Assembly (NCBI GenBank): GCA_945881865.1
Contig: CAMCVK010000002.1
Coordinates: 62,001-126,000, forward strand
Origin: Fimbriimonas ginsengisoli Gsoil 348
Lineage (GTDB): Bacteria; Armatimonadota; Fimbriimonadia; Fimbriimonadales; Fimbriimonadaceae
DNA: 64,000 nt
Reading direction: 5' to 3'
The notes under the pieces were generated by a model. The model worked only from the letters and a program-made list of their open reading frames with translations. It was not told the origin of the DNA and made no database searches. The position numbers and the translations under genes are program-made. Positions 14,191 to 18,654 of this stretch are shown one piece after another; within the stretch, counting starts at the first letter, position 1, and each line of letters begins with the position of its first letter.

Positions 14191-15078
14191 ATGCTAAGTA
14201 GACAAAGAATTGTATTAAGCATGCTTGCCGAAGCGGGGGGATGCCTGAACAAGCTTGACTTGGTCAAGCTTTTGTTCCTTCTGAACGAGGAGCATCCCAC
14301 TTTGCCGAAGTCTGCGATGCTTGAGTTCATCCCCTACCACCGTGGGCCCTACAGCTTCACGCTCGCTCATGACCTCAAGAACTTGGAGCAGTCGGGCCTT
14401 CTGAACCAATCAACACGCAACATCACGCTAACTCCGCTCGGCAAGGCAGCCGCTGCGGATGGTCCCTCCGACCTAGTGCGCCCGGTCCACTCAACGTACA
14501 CGCGCCACGGCCATCTATCTACCGCGGCCCTGATTGATCACGTTTACACGTCGTTTCCTTGGTACACCGTCAATAGCAAGTGGGAGGATCGACGCGCGCA
14601 GACGAGGCATACTGCGGAGATCGCAATCTACACCACGAGCTATGAAGGTGTGCATCTTGATGGCCTCCTAGATAGGCTCATGCGCCATGGCATCCGGAGA
14701 CTCGTTGACGTTCGCGCCAACCCTGTCGCGCGTCGCTTCGGCTTCCACAAATCGACTCTGGCCCGCATCTGCCCCAAAGTTGGAATCGAGTACGTCCACA
14801 TTCCCGAAGTCGGCATCCCAGGCACTTGGCGAACTGATCTCGATACGTTTGACTCATACCAGCGCTTGTTCCATCGATACGAAGCCGAGGTGCTCCCTGG
14901 CCAGCGTAACGCGCTCGATTTTCTTGCGGCACTTATTCGCGAGACGCCCTCCGCGTTGATGTGCAAGGAGGCGAACCCGCTCTGTTGCCATCGAACGACC
15001 CTGGCCCATCAGCTCTCGCGCGAGTTGGCTCTGCCTGTCATCGACTTAGGCTCGGGGGTGAACGGTGGCCTCTTCTGA
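14191..15078 (+). CDS. winged-helix (Panacea/DUF4065-like) and DUF488 fusion protein
   Basis: A 295-residue cytoplasmic protein with two parts. Residues 1-85 look like the helix-turn-helix of Panacea/SocA-like antitoxin domains (LDLVKLLFLLNEEHP, HRGPYSFTLAHDL). Residues about 145-290 are a DUF488 domain with IRRLVDVRANPVARRFGFH and the signature CKEANPLCCHR (C-x-E-x2-P-x2-CHR). DUF488 has been related to rhodanese/cysteine-phosphatase-like folds, so the first cysteine could be nucleophilic. The stop overlaps the next gene by 14 bases, and the two are surely coupled. A role in sensing or processing modified nucleic acids or in biological conflict is inference from the architecture. Confidence 0.75.
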   Translation: MLSRQRIVLSMLAEAGGCLNKLDLVKLLFLLNEEHPTLPKSAMLEFIPYHRGPYSFTLAHDLKNLEQSGLLNQSTRNITLTPLGKAAAADGPSDLVRPVHSTYTRHGHLSTAALIDHVYTSFPWYTVNSKWEDRRAQTRHTAEIAIYTTSYEGVHLDGLLDRLMRHGIRRLVDVRANPVARRFGFHKSTLARICPKVGIEYVHIPEVGIPGTWRTDLDTFDSYQRLFHRYEAEVLPGQRNALDFLAALIRETPSALMCKEANPLCCHRTTLAHQLSRELALPVIDLGSGVNGGLF

Positions 15079-15871
15079 TCGTCGGCGAATCCTCATTACG
15101 GTTCTGACCTATCCCCATCCGTCCAAGAAGTATCAGGAGACGGTCTGCACGGCGGGAATCACCGAGGACGGCCAATGGGTACGCCTGTATCCGCTGCCCC
15201 TCAGATCGTTGCCGAAGGAACAGCAGCTCCGCAAATGGCACTGGGTCGAGTTGGGAACGTTGCCACCAACCAACGATGTCCGCCCCGAGAGTCGACGTCC
15301 ATTGCTTGATAACCTCGTCGTTGGCGCGAGGCTCGACCCTGTCAAGGATCGCGAGGAACGGAGAAAACTCGTTAACTTGCTGCCCCATCGCTCGCTCCTG
15401 GGCTGGGAAGCCGCCTATGACCTGGACAAGACTTCGCTCGGGGTGCTGGTGCCGAAACAGGTTTTGGACGTTGAGCACGAGGCGGAGGATGAGAACTGGA
15501 CAGAGGCAGACAGGTCAGCGCTCTCTCAACTCAACCTCTTCGCCGACACGCCGAGGACGCTACACAAGATTCCGTGCCGCTTCCGCTACGTCTTCAAGGA
15601 TGAAGATGGGCGCGTTCGGCGCCTGACTATTCGCGACTGGGAATTGGGGATGCTGTTCCTGAAGATGCGCGAACAACATGGCGAGACGGAAGCCATCAGG
15701 AAGGTCAAGCAGAAGTATCTAGACCAGATTTGCGCAGCCGATAAGGACACCCGGTTCTTTGTGGGCACGATGTACCCGTACAACCAGTGGATGGTCGTAG
15801 GGACGTTCTGGCCGCCGCGCTCCAATGCTCAGGCGTCAGGTCAAGGTGATCTCTTTGGAAGCGGAGATTAG
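15065..15871 (+). CDS. probable dual-OB-fold protein partnered with DUF488
   Basis: A 268-residue protein starting with GTG inside the end of the DUF488 gene. The N-terminus (RRRILITVLTYPHPSKKYQETVCTAG, given here in part) and the C-terminal RFFVGTMYPYNQWMVVG resemble proteins regularly found next to DUF488 genes. I associate these with two OB-like beta-barrels, from memory and not from a search. Most of the chain is beta-rich and basic, with RFRYVFKDEDGRVRRLTIRDWE in the middle. It has no signal or membrane helix. Nucleic-acid binding is a reasonable guess; an enzymatic role is not evident. Confidence 0.6.
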   Translation: MASSDRRRILITVLTYPHPSKKYQETVCTAGITEDGQWVRLYPLPLRSLPKEQQLRKWHWVELGTLPPTNDVRPESRRPLLDNLVVGARLDPVKDREERRKLVNLLPHRSLLGWEAAYDLDKTSLGVLVPKQVLDVEHEAEDENWTEADRSALSQLNLFADTPRTLHKIPCRFRYVFKDEDGRVRRLTIRDWELGMLFLKMREQHGETEAIRKVKQKYLDQICAADKDTRFFVGTMYPYNQWMVVGTFWPPRSNAQASGQGDLFGSGD

Positions 15872-16099: not shown

Positions 16100-17560
16100 T
16101 CACCGCCTCAGTAGCTCAACCGTGGTCTGTGCCTCCACGAGCGCCTTCTCGGCCACCCCTTCGCCGGGGATGCCGATGTAACCGAGGGCCTTGCCCAACC
16201 CAAGACCAATGAACTTGGATACGGGGTGCGTCCAGGTTTGCAGGTGGTCGTGGGCATGGTCAAATGCCGTCTTCCCCTGCTTATCCTTCAGCGTCCGATC
16301 CGCACCTCCATTTAGCAAAAGCCGCACGCATTCGGGTTCGCCGTGCTGCGCGGCGAGCATCAGCGCCGTTTGCCCGTGCTCATTCAACGCGTTGACGTCG
16401 GCACCGTTCCGAAGGAGCACCTCCACGGACTTCGGAGACCCCCAGTCGCCAAACACCGCTTCATGAAGCGGCCGCTTGCCTCGGGAAAGAAGATTTGGGT
16501 CCGCTCCTGCATCGATCAGCGCTTGGACCGTCTCGGCGACTTGCTTTTCACGCCCGCCGTTTCCATCTCCCTGCCAGCAGGCGTAATGGAGGGGGCTTCC
16601 GTGCGATTCATCAGGCTTGTTCGCGTCCGCGCCAAGCTCGATCAGCGCCCGCACCACTTTCGGATTCATATGAATGCCAGAAGCCATGATGAGCTTCTGT
16701 TGAATCATGGCTTGATCTTCTTTGCCAAGTAAGAACCGAAGAACGGTTAGGTTCTCGGCTTCGATGGCATTGTCAATGGCATCGAAGCCGAAGGTGCCAG
16801 CCCCCGGGCGTACGCCCTGATTCCATAGATACTCGGCGACCTCTACGCTTCCGACGTCGCTAAAGGCATTGATTCCGCCAACCTTGAAACCGGCAGGAAA
16901 GCCCGCTTCCACGATCAACTTAACGCAGTCCAAGCTCCCCGCCGCGGACGCAGCAAACAGCGGGACCGCCTGGTGGCTAAAACCCTCCATGACGTCCCGT
17001 AGCGAAGCAAGAATCTCCTGATCCAGGAGTTCAGTCATGATGTAGGAGCCAGATTCGGGAGGGCGAGCTGGCCCCACCTTGGCGCCGCGCTCGAGCAATA
17101 GCCTAAGTCGAGCGGGGTCGCCGACCGAACAAGCCTCGTACACGCAAGACCTCCCGTTGTTCGCAAACTCGTTAGGATCGCCACCGGCATCGAGGATCAA
17201 GCCTAGGCGCTCTGCATCGCCACCGCCCCAATGGTGGTAGGTGTGATCTGGCTCGAGATCCGCCAGGTTCGCTTCGGTCAGCGGATATCCGGTTCCACCA
17301 CCGGACGCGTACCAAGTTGGGCTCACCTCGCCTTCCGACACCGCGAAAGGGTCGGCACCGTGATCCAGAAGCAGTCGTACGACTTCGGCGGTCGCCTTCG
17401 GCGCAGCGACGGCAACCATGAGCGGAGTGACCTGATCTAGGAACAGACCATGATCCGACTCCGCCGGCATATGGAAGTTCGGATCGACGCCGGCCTCGAG
17501 CAACTGCTTTACGCTGGAGGCATCCCCCATCCGAATGGCTTGGATCAGCTCAACGCTCAT
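16100..17560 (-). CDS. ankyrin-repeat protein
   Basis: A 486-residue cytoplasmic protein made almost wholly of ankyrin repeats. Clear units are TPLMVAVAAPKATAEVVRLL, GSPLHYACWQGDG, RPLHEAVFGDW and GQTALMLAAQHGEPECVRLL, each with the usual LLxxGADPN-type turn. The C-terminus (about 445-486) leaves the repeat pattern and may be a small helical cap. It should act by binding a protein; no enzymatic domain is attached. Start ATG at 17560 has both a GAGGG site and a TACAAT -10 box ending six bases upstream. It sits between the DUF488 pair and the Fic pair and is flanked by a 41-base repeat, suggesting arrival as a unit. Confidence 0.9.
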   Translation of the reverse strand: MSVELIQAIRMGDASSVKQLLEAGVDPNFHMPAESDHGLFLDQVTPLMVAVAAPKATAEVVRLLLDHGADPFAVSEGEVSPTWYASGGGTGYPLTEANLADLEPDHTYHHWGGGDAERLGLILDAGGDPNEFANNGRSCVYEACSVGDPARLRLLLERGAKVGPARPPESGSYIMTELLDQEILASLRDVMEGFSHQAVPLFAASAAGSLDCVKLIVEAGFPAGFKVGGINAFSDVGSVEVAEYLWNQGVRPGAGTFGFDAIDNAIEAENLTVLRFLLGKEDQAMIQQKLIMASGIHMNPKVVRALIELGADANKPDESHGSPLHYACWQGDGNGGREKQVAETVQALIDAGADPNLLSRGKRPLHEAVFGDWGSPKSVEVLLRNGADVNALNEHGQTALMLAAQHGEPECVRLLLNGGADRTLKDKQGKTAFDHAHDHLQTWTHPVSKFIGLGLGKALGYIGIPGEGVAEKALVEAQTTVELLRR

Positions 17561-17814: not shown

Positions 17815-17822
17815 AAATGAGG

Positions 17823-18005
17823 ATGGAAACGTTCGCGAAAGAGAGCAAGCATCTCAGCACCCCGGAGCAGCGCACGGCATCCGCGGTGCGAAGCGTTGTA
17901 GCATCATCCCAAGCCGAGGGAATCACGGTGACGGCAGCTGAGATTCGGCGTCTAGCTGCTGAGCGCGTTCGATCCAATACTCGAACAACGAAGTCAGAGG
18001 TTTGA
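17823..18005 (+). CDS. VbhA-like Fic inhibitor (antitoxin), convergent with the Fic gene
   Basis: A 60-residue helical protein matching the pattern of class I Fic antitoxins. EQRTASAVRSVVASSQAEG contains the inhibitory motif [S/T]xxxE[G/N] as S28-SQA-E32-G33; the glutamate would block ATP binding in the Fic active site. Known VbhA genes precede their toxin on the same strand. Here the gene faces the Fic gene, and the last 83 bases are shared by both strands. Start 17823 is preferred over 17817 from promoter spacing. Some doubt remains because the ORF is short, but motif and neighbour agree. Confidence 0.7.
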   Translation: METFAKESKHLSTPEQRTASAVRSVVASSQAEGITVTAAEIRRLAAERVRSNTRTTKSEV

Positions 18006-18654
18006 AGTCTCCGGCAAAACCTCGCCTCAACGCCGAGTAGTAGGCATTGCGCTTCTGGTCGTTGTCTAGGTCATATTCCGGAGCTGGATAGCCAGCTTGA
18101 AGAACCATCAGGTCGGCCAGCCAACGACCAAGCCGACCATTCCCCTCACGGAAAGGATGGATCAACTGCAATTCAGCGTGCACCACGCTCACCCGATATG
18201 CAACCTCACCAACCGTGGTGGGCTGGCTCTTGCTTAAGGCCGTTTTGTCGGGCCCTTCCGACGGGAATTCTAAGCCGAACGGGATGTTTCCGGAACCAAG
18301 GCATGGCGTGTGCTCTGCCAGCTGTTCCCGCTCAAGCCTCTCCATCTCGGCCAGGATGTTGGGTGCCGGACAGAACATGAAGCCACCTTTGCTCACATTG
18401 ACCGTGCGATACTCTCCCGCCATGTAATAGAAATCCCCGAGCCATTTTCGATGCAATTCACGGATGATGGCCGATGTAAACTTCAGCGAAATCGGCAACT
18501 CAAATGAGTCGACGTACGCGACGGTGAGCAACTCCGTTTCTATCCGCGCGGCATCGACAGGATTGATGATTCCCTGCTTGTTCCGCAGAACTTGGTTCAA
18601 CGAGTTTGGCTCGTATTCACCTCTTTCCTCGGCATACGCGTCGTACCGACTCAT
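17923..18654 (-). CDS. Fic-domain AMP-transferase toxin
   Basis: A 243-residue protein with an intact Fic motif HPFREGNGRLGR at residues 166-177, including the catalytic histidine and the phosphate-binding GNGR. The flap region precedes it (about 80-100, EYRTVNVSKGGFMF). The usual activity is transfer of AMP from ATP to a hydroxyl of a target protein. No inhibitory S/TxxxE helix is present within the protein near its ends, consistent with inhibition by the separate 60-residue protein. The C-terminal 27 codons overlap the antitoxin gene on the opposite strand. The protein sits at the end of the tRNA-linked accessory block. Confidence 0.9.
   Translation of the reverse strand: MSRYDAYAEERGEYEPNSLNQVLRNKQGIINPVDAARIETELLTVAYVDSFELPISLKFTSAIIRELHRKWLGDFYYMAGEYRTVNVSKGGFMFCPAPNILAEMERLEREQLAEHTPCLGSGNIPFGLEFPSEGPDKTALSKSQPTTVGEVAYRVSVVHAELQLIHPFREGNGRLGRWLADLMVLQAGYPAPEYDLDNDQKRNAYYSALRRGFAGDFKPLTSLFEYWIERAQQLDAESQLPSP

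Follow-up and report, generated by a model that had tools for sequence, protein, structure and literature searches.

The closest described relative of the locus reported here is the candidate system PDC-M19 of PADLOC. PADLOC PDCs are candidates chosen by their association with known defence systems, and most of them are unvalidated experimentally (PMC12988326). The literature searched, as far as it was readable, contained neither the name PDC-M19 nor a mechanism or clamp motifs for it, and the titles and abstracts of the DUF488 literature yielded nothing on the pair of proteins, here called A and B, that make up the system.

Several other proteins and systems bear on it. RapZ, a binder of small RNAs, is in the wider clade that includes DUF488, and for part of that clade DNA-end processing was reportedly predicted by Burroughs and Aravind in 2023. 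More than one OB fold is found in telomere end-binding proteins and in HIN domains, both of which bind DNA. The toxins SocB and RipA have the sliding clamp as their target. To our knowledge, no immune system described so far has clamp docking as a conserved part of its design.

Proteins dock on the bacterial clamp through the motif QL(S/D)LF, since revised to Q-phi-x-[LM]-[FL] and Q-phi-x-[LM]-x-[FL] (PMC9690074, PMC13254535). UmuC (DNA polymerase V) has such a motif internally, at 357-QLNLF-361 (PMC3716654), and Pol III has an internal and a C-terminal clamp motif together. The corresponding PCNA motif is Qxx[IL]xxFF. Finally, an archaeal ParB-fold/DUF488-HTH fusion binds CTP (PMC12704722); it may be a different protein from the ParB-DUF488 proteins that are linked to B.

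The gene pair

The window, by which is meant the whole stretch of 64,000 nucleotides that was analysed, comes from a genome of 3.2 Mb. It contains genes A and B as intact open reading frames with the 14-base overlap described in the initial annotation (Table 1). Both proteins match PDC-M19 over nearly their full length, A with residues 1-278 (1-284 of the 294 positions in the PDC-M19A model) and B with residues 6-254 (3-264 of 269 in PDC-M19B). The genes are adjacent, and there is no essential difference from the PADLOC entry. The locus is an ordinary member of PDC-M19, catalogued and with its mechanism unexplained. The initial annotation described it as a pair of no established function, which is right in that no mechanism was found, but the pair was already on record.

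Table 1 Features of the locus, with positions in the window
Feature	Position	Strand	Support
tRNA-Ala(GGC)	13873-13948		
Gene A, winged-helix + DUF488 protein, 295 aa, ATG start (PDC-M19A)	14191..15078	+	ORF intact; Pfam DUF488 E 1.8e-24; PADLOC PDC-M19A E 4.4e-78
A residues 1-137, winged-helix domain like DarG C-terminal (DarT-binding) domain	14191..14601	+	AlphaFold2 pLDDT 94.5; 7yk3_B Z 12.9, rmsd 3.1, 131 residues aligned
A residues 143-283, DUF488 domain (PTP/rhodanese-type fold)	14617..15039	+	PF04343; SsoPTP Z 8.4, weak, fold class only
A D173-V-R175, conserved portion of presumed active site	14707..14715	+	D 138/138, R 137/138
A C258-K-E-A-N-P-L-C-C266-H-R268 signature	14962..14994	+	C258, E260, C266, H267, R268 each 137/138 in DUF488 partners of B
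A/B overlap, 14 bases	15065..15078	+	ORF coordinates
Gene B, dual-OB protein, 268 aa, GTG start (PDC-M19B, phrog_25907)	15065..15871	+	ORF intact; PADLOC PDC-M19B E 1.3e-74; phrog_25907 E 5e-45; AlphaFold2 pLDDT 93.2
B residues 1-108, first OB domain	15065..15388	+	RecO N-terminal and telomere-protein OB folds, Z 7.5-7.9 (fold class)
B residues 107-252, second OB domain	15383..15820	+	RADX, RMI1, Teb1C, RPA70 OB folds, Z 6.5-8.0 (fold class)
B internal clamp-binding-like motif Q155-L-N-L-F159	15527..15541	+	Q 96%, L 84%, F 92% over 73 clusters; 66/72 linkers vs shuffle mean 5.7 (shared ancestry ignored)
B C-terminal clamp-binding-like motif Q260-G-D-L-F264	15842..15856	+	54/72 tails vs shuffle mean 6.8, max 16 (shared ancestry ignored); motif ends on the last residue in 36/54 motif-bearing tails

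Protein A

AlphaFold2 models of A and B, both of high confidence, were built from alignments of related loci. The model of A (pLDDT 94.5) is predicted to consist of a winged helix-turn-helix and a domain of the PTP/rhodanese type, as had been expected from the sequence. Among solved structures, residues 1-137 are most similar to the C-terminal domain of DarG in the DarTG complex, with 20% identity, and share the fold through which DarG contacts DarT. Beyond this domain the two systems differ: DUF488 replaces the DarG macrodomain, and the partner B is a dual-OB protein and not an ADP-ribosyltransferase. An identification of A as a complete DarG was rejected (equivalog score 13.5 against a cut-off of 250), the enzymatic domain found being DUF488. 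The helix-turn-helix had initially been described as Panacea-like. That identification has to be abandoned, there being no match to DUF4065 at E<=1 in Pfam or NCBIfam. A SocA-type antitoxin with DUF4065 was rejected on the same grounds in Pfam.

The initial assignment of a DUF488 domain with its cysteine signature intact is correct: PF04343 covers residues 157-273 with 87.1 bits against a curated cut-off of 22.2, and CKEANPLCCHR is present. Comparison of the modelled domain with PTP-fold phosphatases gives Z of about 8, which is weak and indicates the fold class only. The residues of the presumed active site are nearly invariant among the DUF488 partners of B (Table 1). There are small departures in A close to conserved DUF488 loops: S150 (14638-14640) replaces the G of 136 of the 138 partners, and at two positions that are S in most partners the protein has A180 (14728-14730) and H186 (14746-14748).

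Protein B

B has no match at cut-off in Pfam or NCBIfam, and no solved structure was significantly related to it in a sequence search. It is a member of the uncharacterised PHROG 25907. The model (pLDDT 93.2) is predicted to contain two OB folds, in agreement with the initial expectation. They resemble the OB folds of proteins that bind single-stranded DNA, but their Z values (6.5-8) support the fold class only, and are too middling to prove such binding. With the whole protein as query, the first Foldseek matches are telomere end-binding proteins and HIN domains.

The Pfam family DuOB (PF22557) does not match B of the window, and has no match in the source genome or in control genomes. Five of 54 relatives match it weakly (best E 9.7e-5), which agrees with the 'dual-OB' of the initial annotation. 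B had also been described as basic and β-rich; it does have two OB folds and is mildly basic (pI 8.7), but basicity is not a property of the family, in which pI ranges from 5.4 to 9.4. The original three-part reading of the pair, as a winged helix, a thiol-type enzyme and a dual-OB nucleic-acid binder, is backed by fold and by conservation.

Clamp-binding-like motifs in B

In the alignment of B, a nearly invariant Q..LF stands within a poorly conserved loop, and a second copy is found in the tail. The motifs were counted in 72 clusters of B at 70% identity, with the Sulfolobus cluster excluded. The five-residue form is present in 66 of the 72 linkers, compared with a mean of 5.7 and a maximum of 15 in 1000 shuffles that ignore shared ancestry. 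Forms of five to seven residues are present in 54 of the 72 tails (mean 6.8 and maximum 16 in shuffles, shared ancestry again being ignored). The motif as written is absent from 6 linkers and 18 tails. At least one motif is found in 70 clusters and both in 50, and the two clusters with neither show it in shifted versions, for example ELSLF and QEPDLF. Under the stricter published consensus the motif is counted in 22/72 linkers and 14/72 tails, against 1/72 for the remainder of B. Tails of unrelated ORFs carry the motif in 4% of cases. Those of the DUF488 partners do so in 7 of 135, which is background; since A-family tails are not enriched, the C-terminus of A, which ends GGLF, was rejected as a clamp motif.

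The internal motif is located in a loop of the B model, outside regular secondary structure and beside a predicted helix. The tail is flexible in the model (pLDDT 61-70). Tail variants include QLSLF, QMSLF, QYFLDL, QMSLDF and QLEMPL, and thus both the five- and the six-residue forms of the clamp motif. Such swapping fits a clamp pocket better than it fits a structural role. The internal QLNLF of B is identical to residues 357-361 of UmuC; B differs from UmuC and other bacterial clamp clients in having two OB domains alongside its two motifs, and is not a polymerase.

Archaeal members differ in their tails. Natronococcus B has the C-terminal sequence QPGLDSF and Sulfolobales B has NVKLDDFI or NVSFDKFI, all of them PIP-like, and in the tail of Haloquadratum B no PCNA-type-like motif was found. 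PCNA-type-like tails are therefore present in two of the archaeal lineages, in a comparison of three lineages only.

It could be argued that the Q..LF sequences are not clamp motifs, that the internal one serves the structure or the contact with A, that the tail is some other signal, and that the pair acts elsewhere, for example on RNA. The small-RNA binding of RapZ would suit this explanation, as would the 96% conservation of the internal Q, which exceeds that of most short linear motifs, and the position of the motif beside a predicted helix. However, the same motif appears again at the extreme C-terminus, the tail alternates between both known lengths of clamp motif, and PIP-like tails take its place in two archaeal lineages, and we regard this explanation as improbable. 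With at least one motif in 70 of 72 clusters, and with a loop and a flexible tail to carry them in the predicted structure, B is a candidate member of the clamp-binding class. On the strength of these motifs, docking of B on the clamp is likely. As far as the readable literature shows, the two clamp-binding-like motifs of B have not been described before.

Distribution and gene order

A single scan of GTDB genomes with one peptide pattern produced 344 relatives of B, and IMG/VR provided 47 loci. The nearest named relative is from an Armatimonadetes MAG, at 71% identity. B is present in 3 of 61 close relatives and in 18 of 291 genomes of the phylum, and some copies are broken: in one genome (G062; L040, L044) it is in two pieces about 0.8 kb apart, and in another (G105; L043) only a 24-codon remnant is left. 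The module can thus be lost.

B is found on plasmids of Rhizobium, Burkholderia, Pseudomonas, Streptomyces, Arthrobacter and cyanobacteria, and also of Sulfolobales. Neighbours of the pair in viruses include portal, head, integrase and repressor genes, and in Gordonia phages it sits between the immunity repressor and the integrase. In Gordonia phage Eviarto (L016:3027-5274) the pair consists of the convergent genes 42 and 43, at a site typical of accessory cargo. A tree of 79 rows has 31 changes of phylum against a minimum of 16, and it is therefore likely that there has been some degree of horizontal transfer.

A DUF488 gene lies within 1.5 kb of B in 158 of 162 loci, and the other four are fragments or are cut by contig edges. 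The pairing is therefore not due to chance; it is obligate. The layout varies. A winged-helix DUF488 gene is upstream and co-directional in 96 loci, a DUF488 gene without a match to the winged-helix domain is upstream in 21, the DUF488 gene is downstream in 4, and in 37 the genes are convergent, often with overlapping 3' ends. The extra domain of the partner may instead be a Cro/C1-type HTH (Streptomyces) or ParB (archaea). In the latter case, B is near a ParB-DUF488 protein on archaeal plasmids, the ParB domain standing in place of the winged helix of A. No fused A-B protein was found among the 162 loci. From this variation in layout and in extra domains, the constant core is DUF488 plus B.

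In an attempt to add archaeal members, viral sequences were searched with single archaeal proteins and there was no match; a query with an alignment found two phage relatives. In two phage contigs (L179:704-2612 and L180:3944-6040) a distant relative of B is beside a DUF4326 protein, which in L180 has a ParB domain too. The relative in L180 ends QGQLFTT, and the clamp-like tail may reach DUF4326 pairs as well.

Gene order bears on the possibility that the pair is a toxin-antitoxin system like SocAB or RipAB, in which B would occupy the clamp and block replication, and A would neutralise B via its DarG-like winged helix. There is a likeness, in that one partner has, or acts on, a clamp site: the toxins SocB and RipA target the sliding clamp, the N-terminal domain of A resembles the DarT-binding domain of DarG, and the genes overlap in the window. 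There are differences too: B is large and conserved, with two OB domains and two motifs, and A lacks DUF4065 and has an enzyme domain that is conserved. Moreover, 37 of the 158 paired loci are convergent and so not one operon, and in 62 of the 158 the DUF488 partner has no match to the winged-helix model. The many loci without a DarG-like domain, and the nearly invariant catalytic residues of DUF488, weaken the toxin-antitoxin explanation, which we consider quite unlikely.

Genomic neighbourhood

Proteins within 2.5 kb of the pair matched 245 PADLOC models (149 proteins), while those more than 5 kb away matched 53 (also 149 proteins). A single type I methylase model was matched by six near proteins and one far protein. 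Restriction-modification (R-M) genes are thus commoner near the pair than farther out, in line with the defence-island association suggested initially. Since each R-M gene matches many models, the enrichment is moderate evidence that the pair resides in defence islands. With the patchy distribution described above and carriage by plasmids and phages, it also agrees with the island-like occurrence that had been proposed.

The tRNA-Ala noted in the initial annotation is indeed beside the pair, but is a bystander. The window has no repeat of it of at least 12 bases elsewhere, and in 57 loci the tRNAs near the pair are few, with no recurrent one; a tRNA-linked island was rejected on these grounds. 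Comparison with empty sites was also tried. In congeners the window's flanking genes do not stay together, and hence no insertion boundary could be drawn.

Other genes nearby may be mentioned briefly. A Fic-domain gene with an intact HPFREGNGR motif is at 17923-18654 (-), convergent with a 62-aa ORF at 17817-18005 (+) that overlaps it by 83 bases. This ORF matches VbhA, an antitoxin, only weakly (E 0.012, below cut-off); its sequence SSQAEG conforms to the Fic inhibitory motif (S/T)xxxE(G/N). Between the pair and the Fic gene is a 486-aa ankyrin-repeat protein (16100-17560, -). It is weakly similar to ankyrin proteins of phage defence and to effector ankyrins, which probably reflects shared repeats and nothing more.

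Proposed mechanism

The best explanation of these observations is that the pair, PDC-M19 among the PADLOC candidates, forms a two-protein module that moves horizontally. We hypothesise that B is an adaptor, whose two OB domains would bind nucleic acid, with single-stranded DNA or DNA ends as the most probable ligands. The internal QLNLF and the tail QGDLF would dock it on the bacterial sliding clamp, possibly with one motif in each pocket of the dimeric ring. A would bring its DUF488 cysteine-type enzyme to the clamp, and its winged helix, of the type by which DarG grips DarT, would probably hold B, DNA or a regulator. There the enzyme would act on DNA that is exposed at the fork or behind it, the most probable substrates being ends or altered nucleotides of invading replicons. 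Contact between A and B, the chemistry proposed for DUF488 and interference with phages or plasmids are presumed, and an antiphage function is suggested by association only.

The evidence points to DNA at the replication sliding clamp, which is more specific than the 'modified nucleic acid' first suggested; the initial annotation noted neither the clamp nor the two motifs in B. For clamp docking combined with an enzyme acting on DNA, the balance tips slightly in favour. Once antiphage defence is added, the chances fall somewhat short of even. The full proposal, of a widespread mobile defence module in which a dual-OB adaptor, docked on the clamp by two conserved motifs that are PIP-like in archaeal members, carries a thiol enzyme of the DUF488 clade to freshly replicated DNA and thereby lets invading replicons be sensed or processed at their forks, is correspondingly tentative.

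The main rivals are the clamp-poisoning toxin-antitoxin system considered above and a mobile module for DNA repair or damage tolerance. In the latter, the clamp-docked pair would process blocked or modified ends for a plasmid, a phage or the host, like modules of the UmuC/ImuB type. The identity of the internal motif with that of UmuC, the carriage of the pair by plasmids and phages themselves, and the similarity of the OB folds of B to those of RecO, RPA, RMI1 and RADX would all be understandable in a repair module. Less so are the listing of the pair by PADLOC as a defence candidate by association, the greater frequency of R-M genes near it, and its patchy, decaying copies. We consider a repair module rather unlikely.

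Significance

PDC-M19 pairs span bacteria, phages and archaeal plasmids, and no known mechanism was found for them. The clamp motifs give this unexplained system a concrete mechanism that is directly testable. The archaeal members offer a natural test, the docking motif having apparently been exchanged for one of the PCNA type. Should the proposal hold, there would be a direct link between the replication clamp and immunity, or repair borne by replicons.
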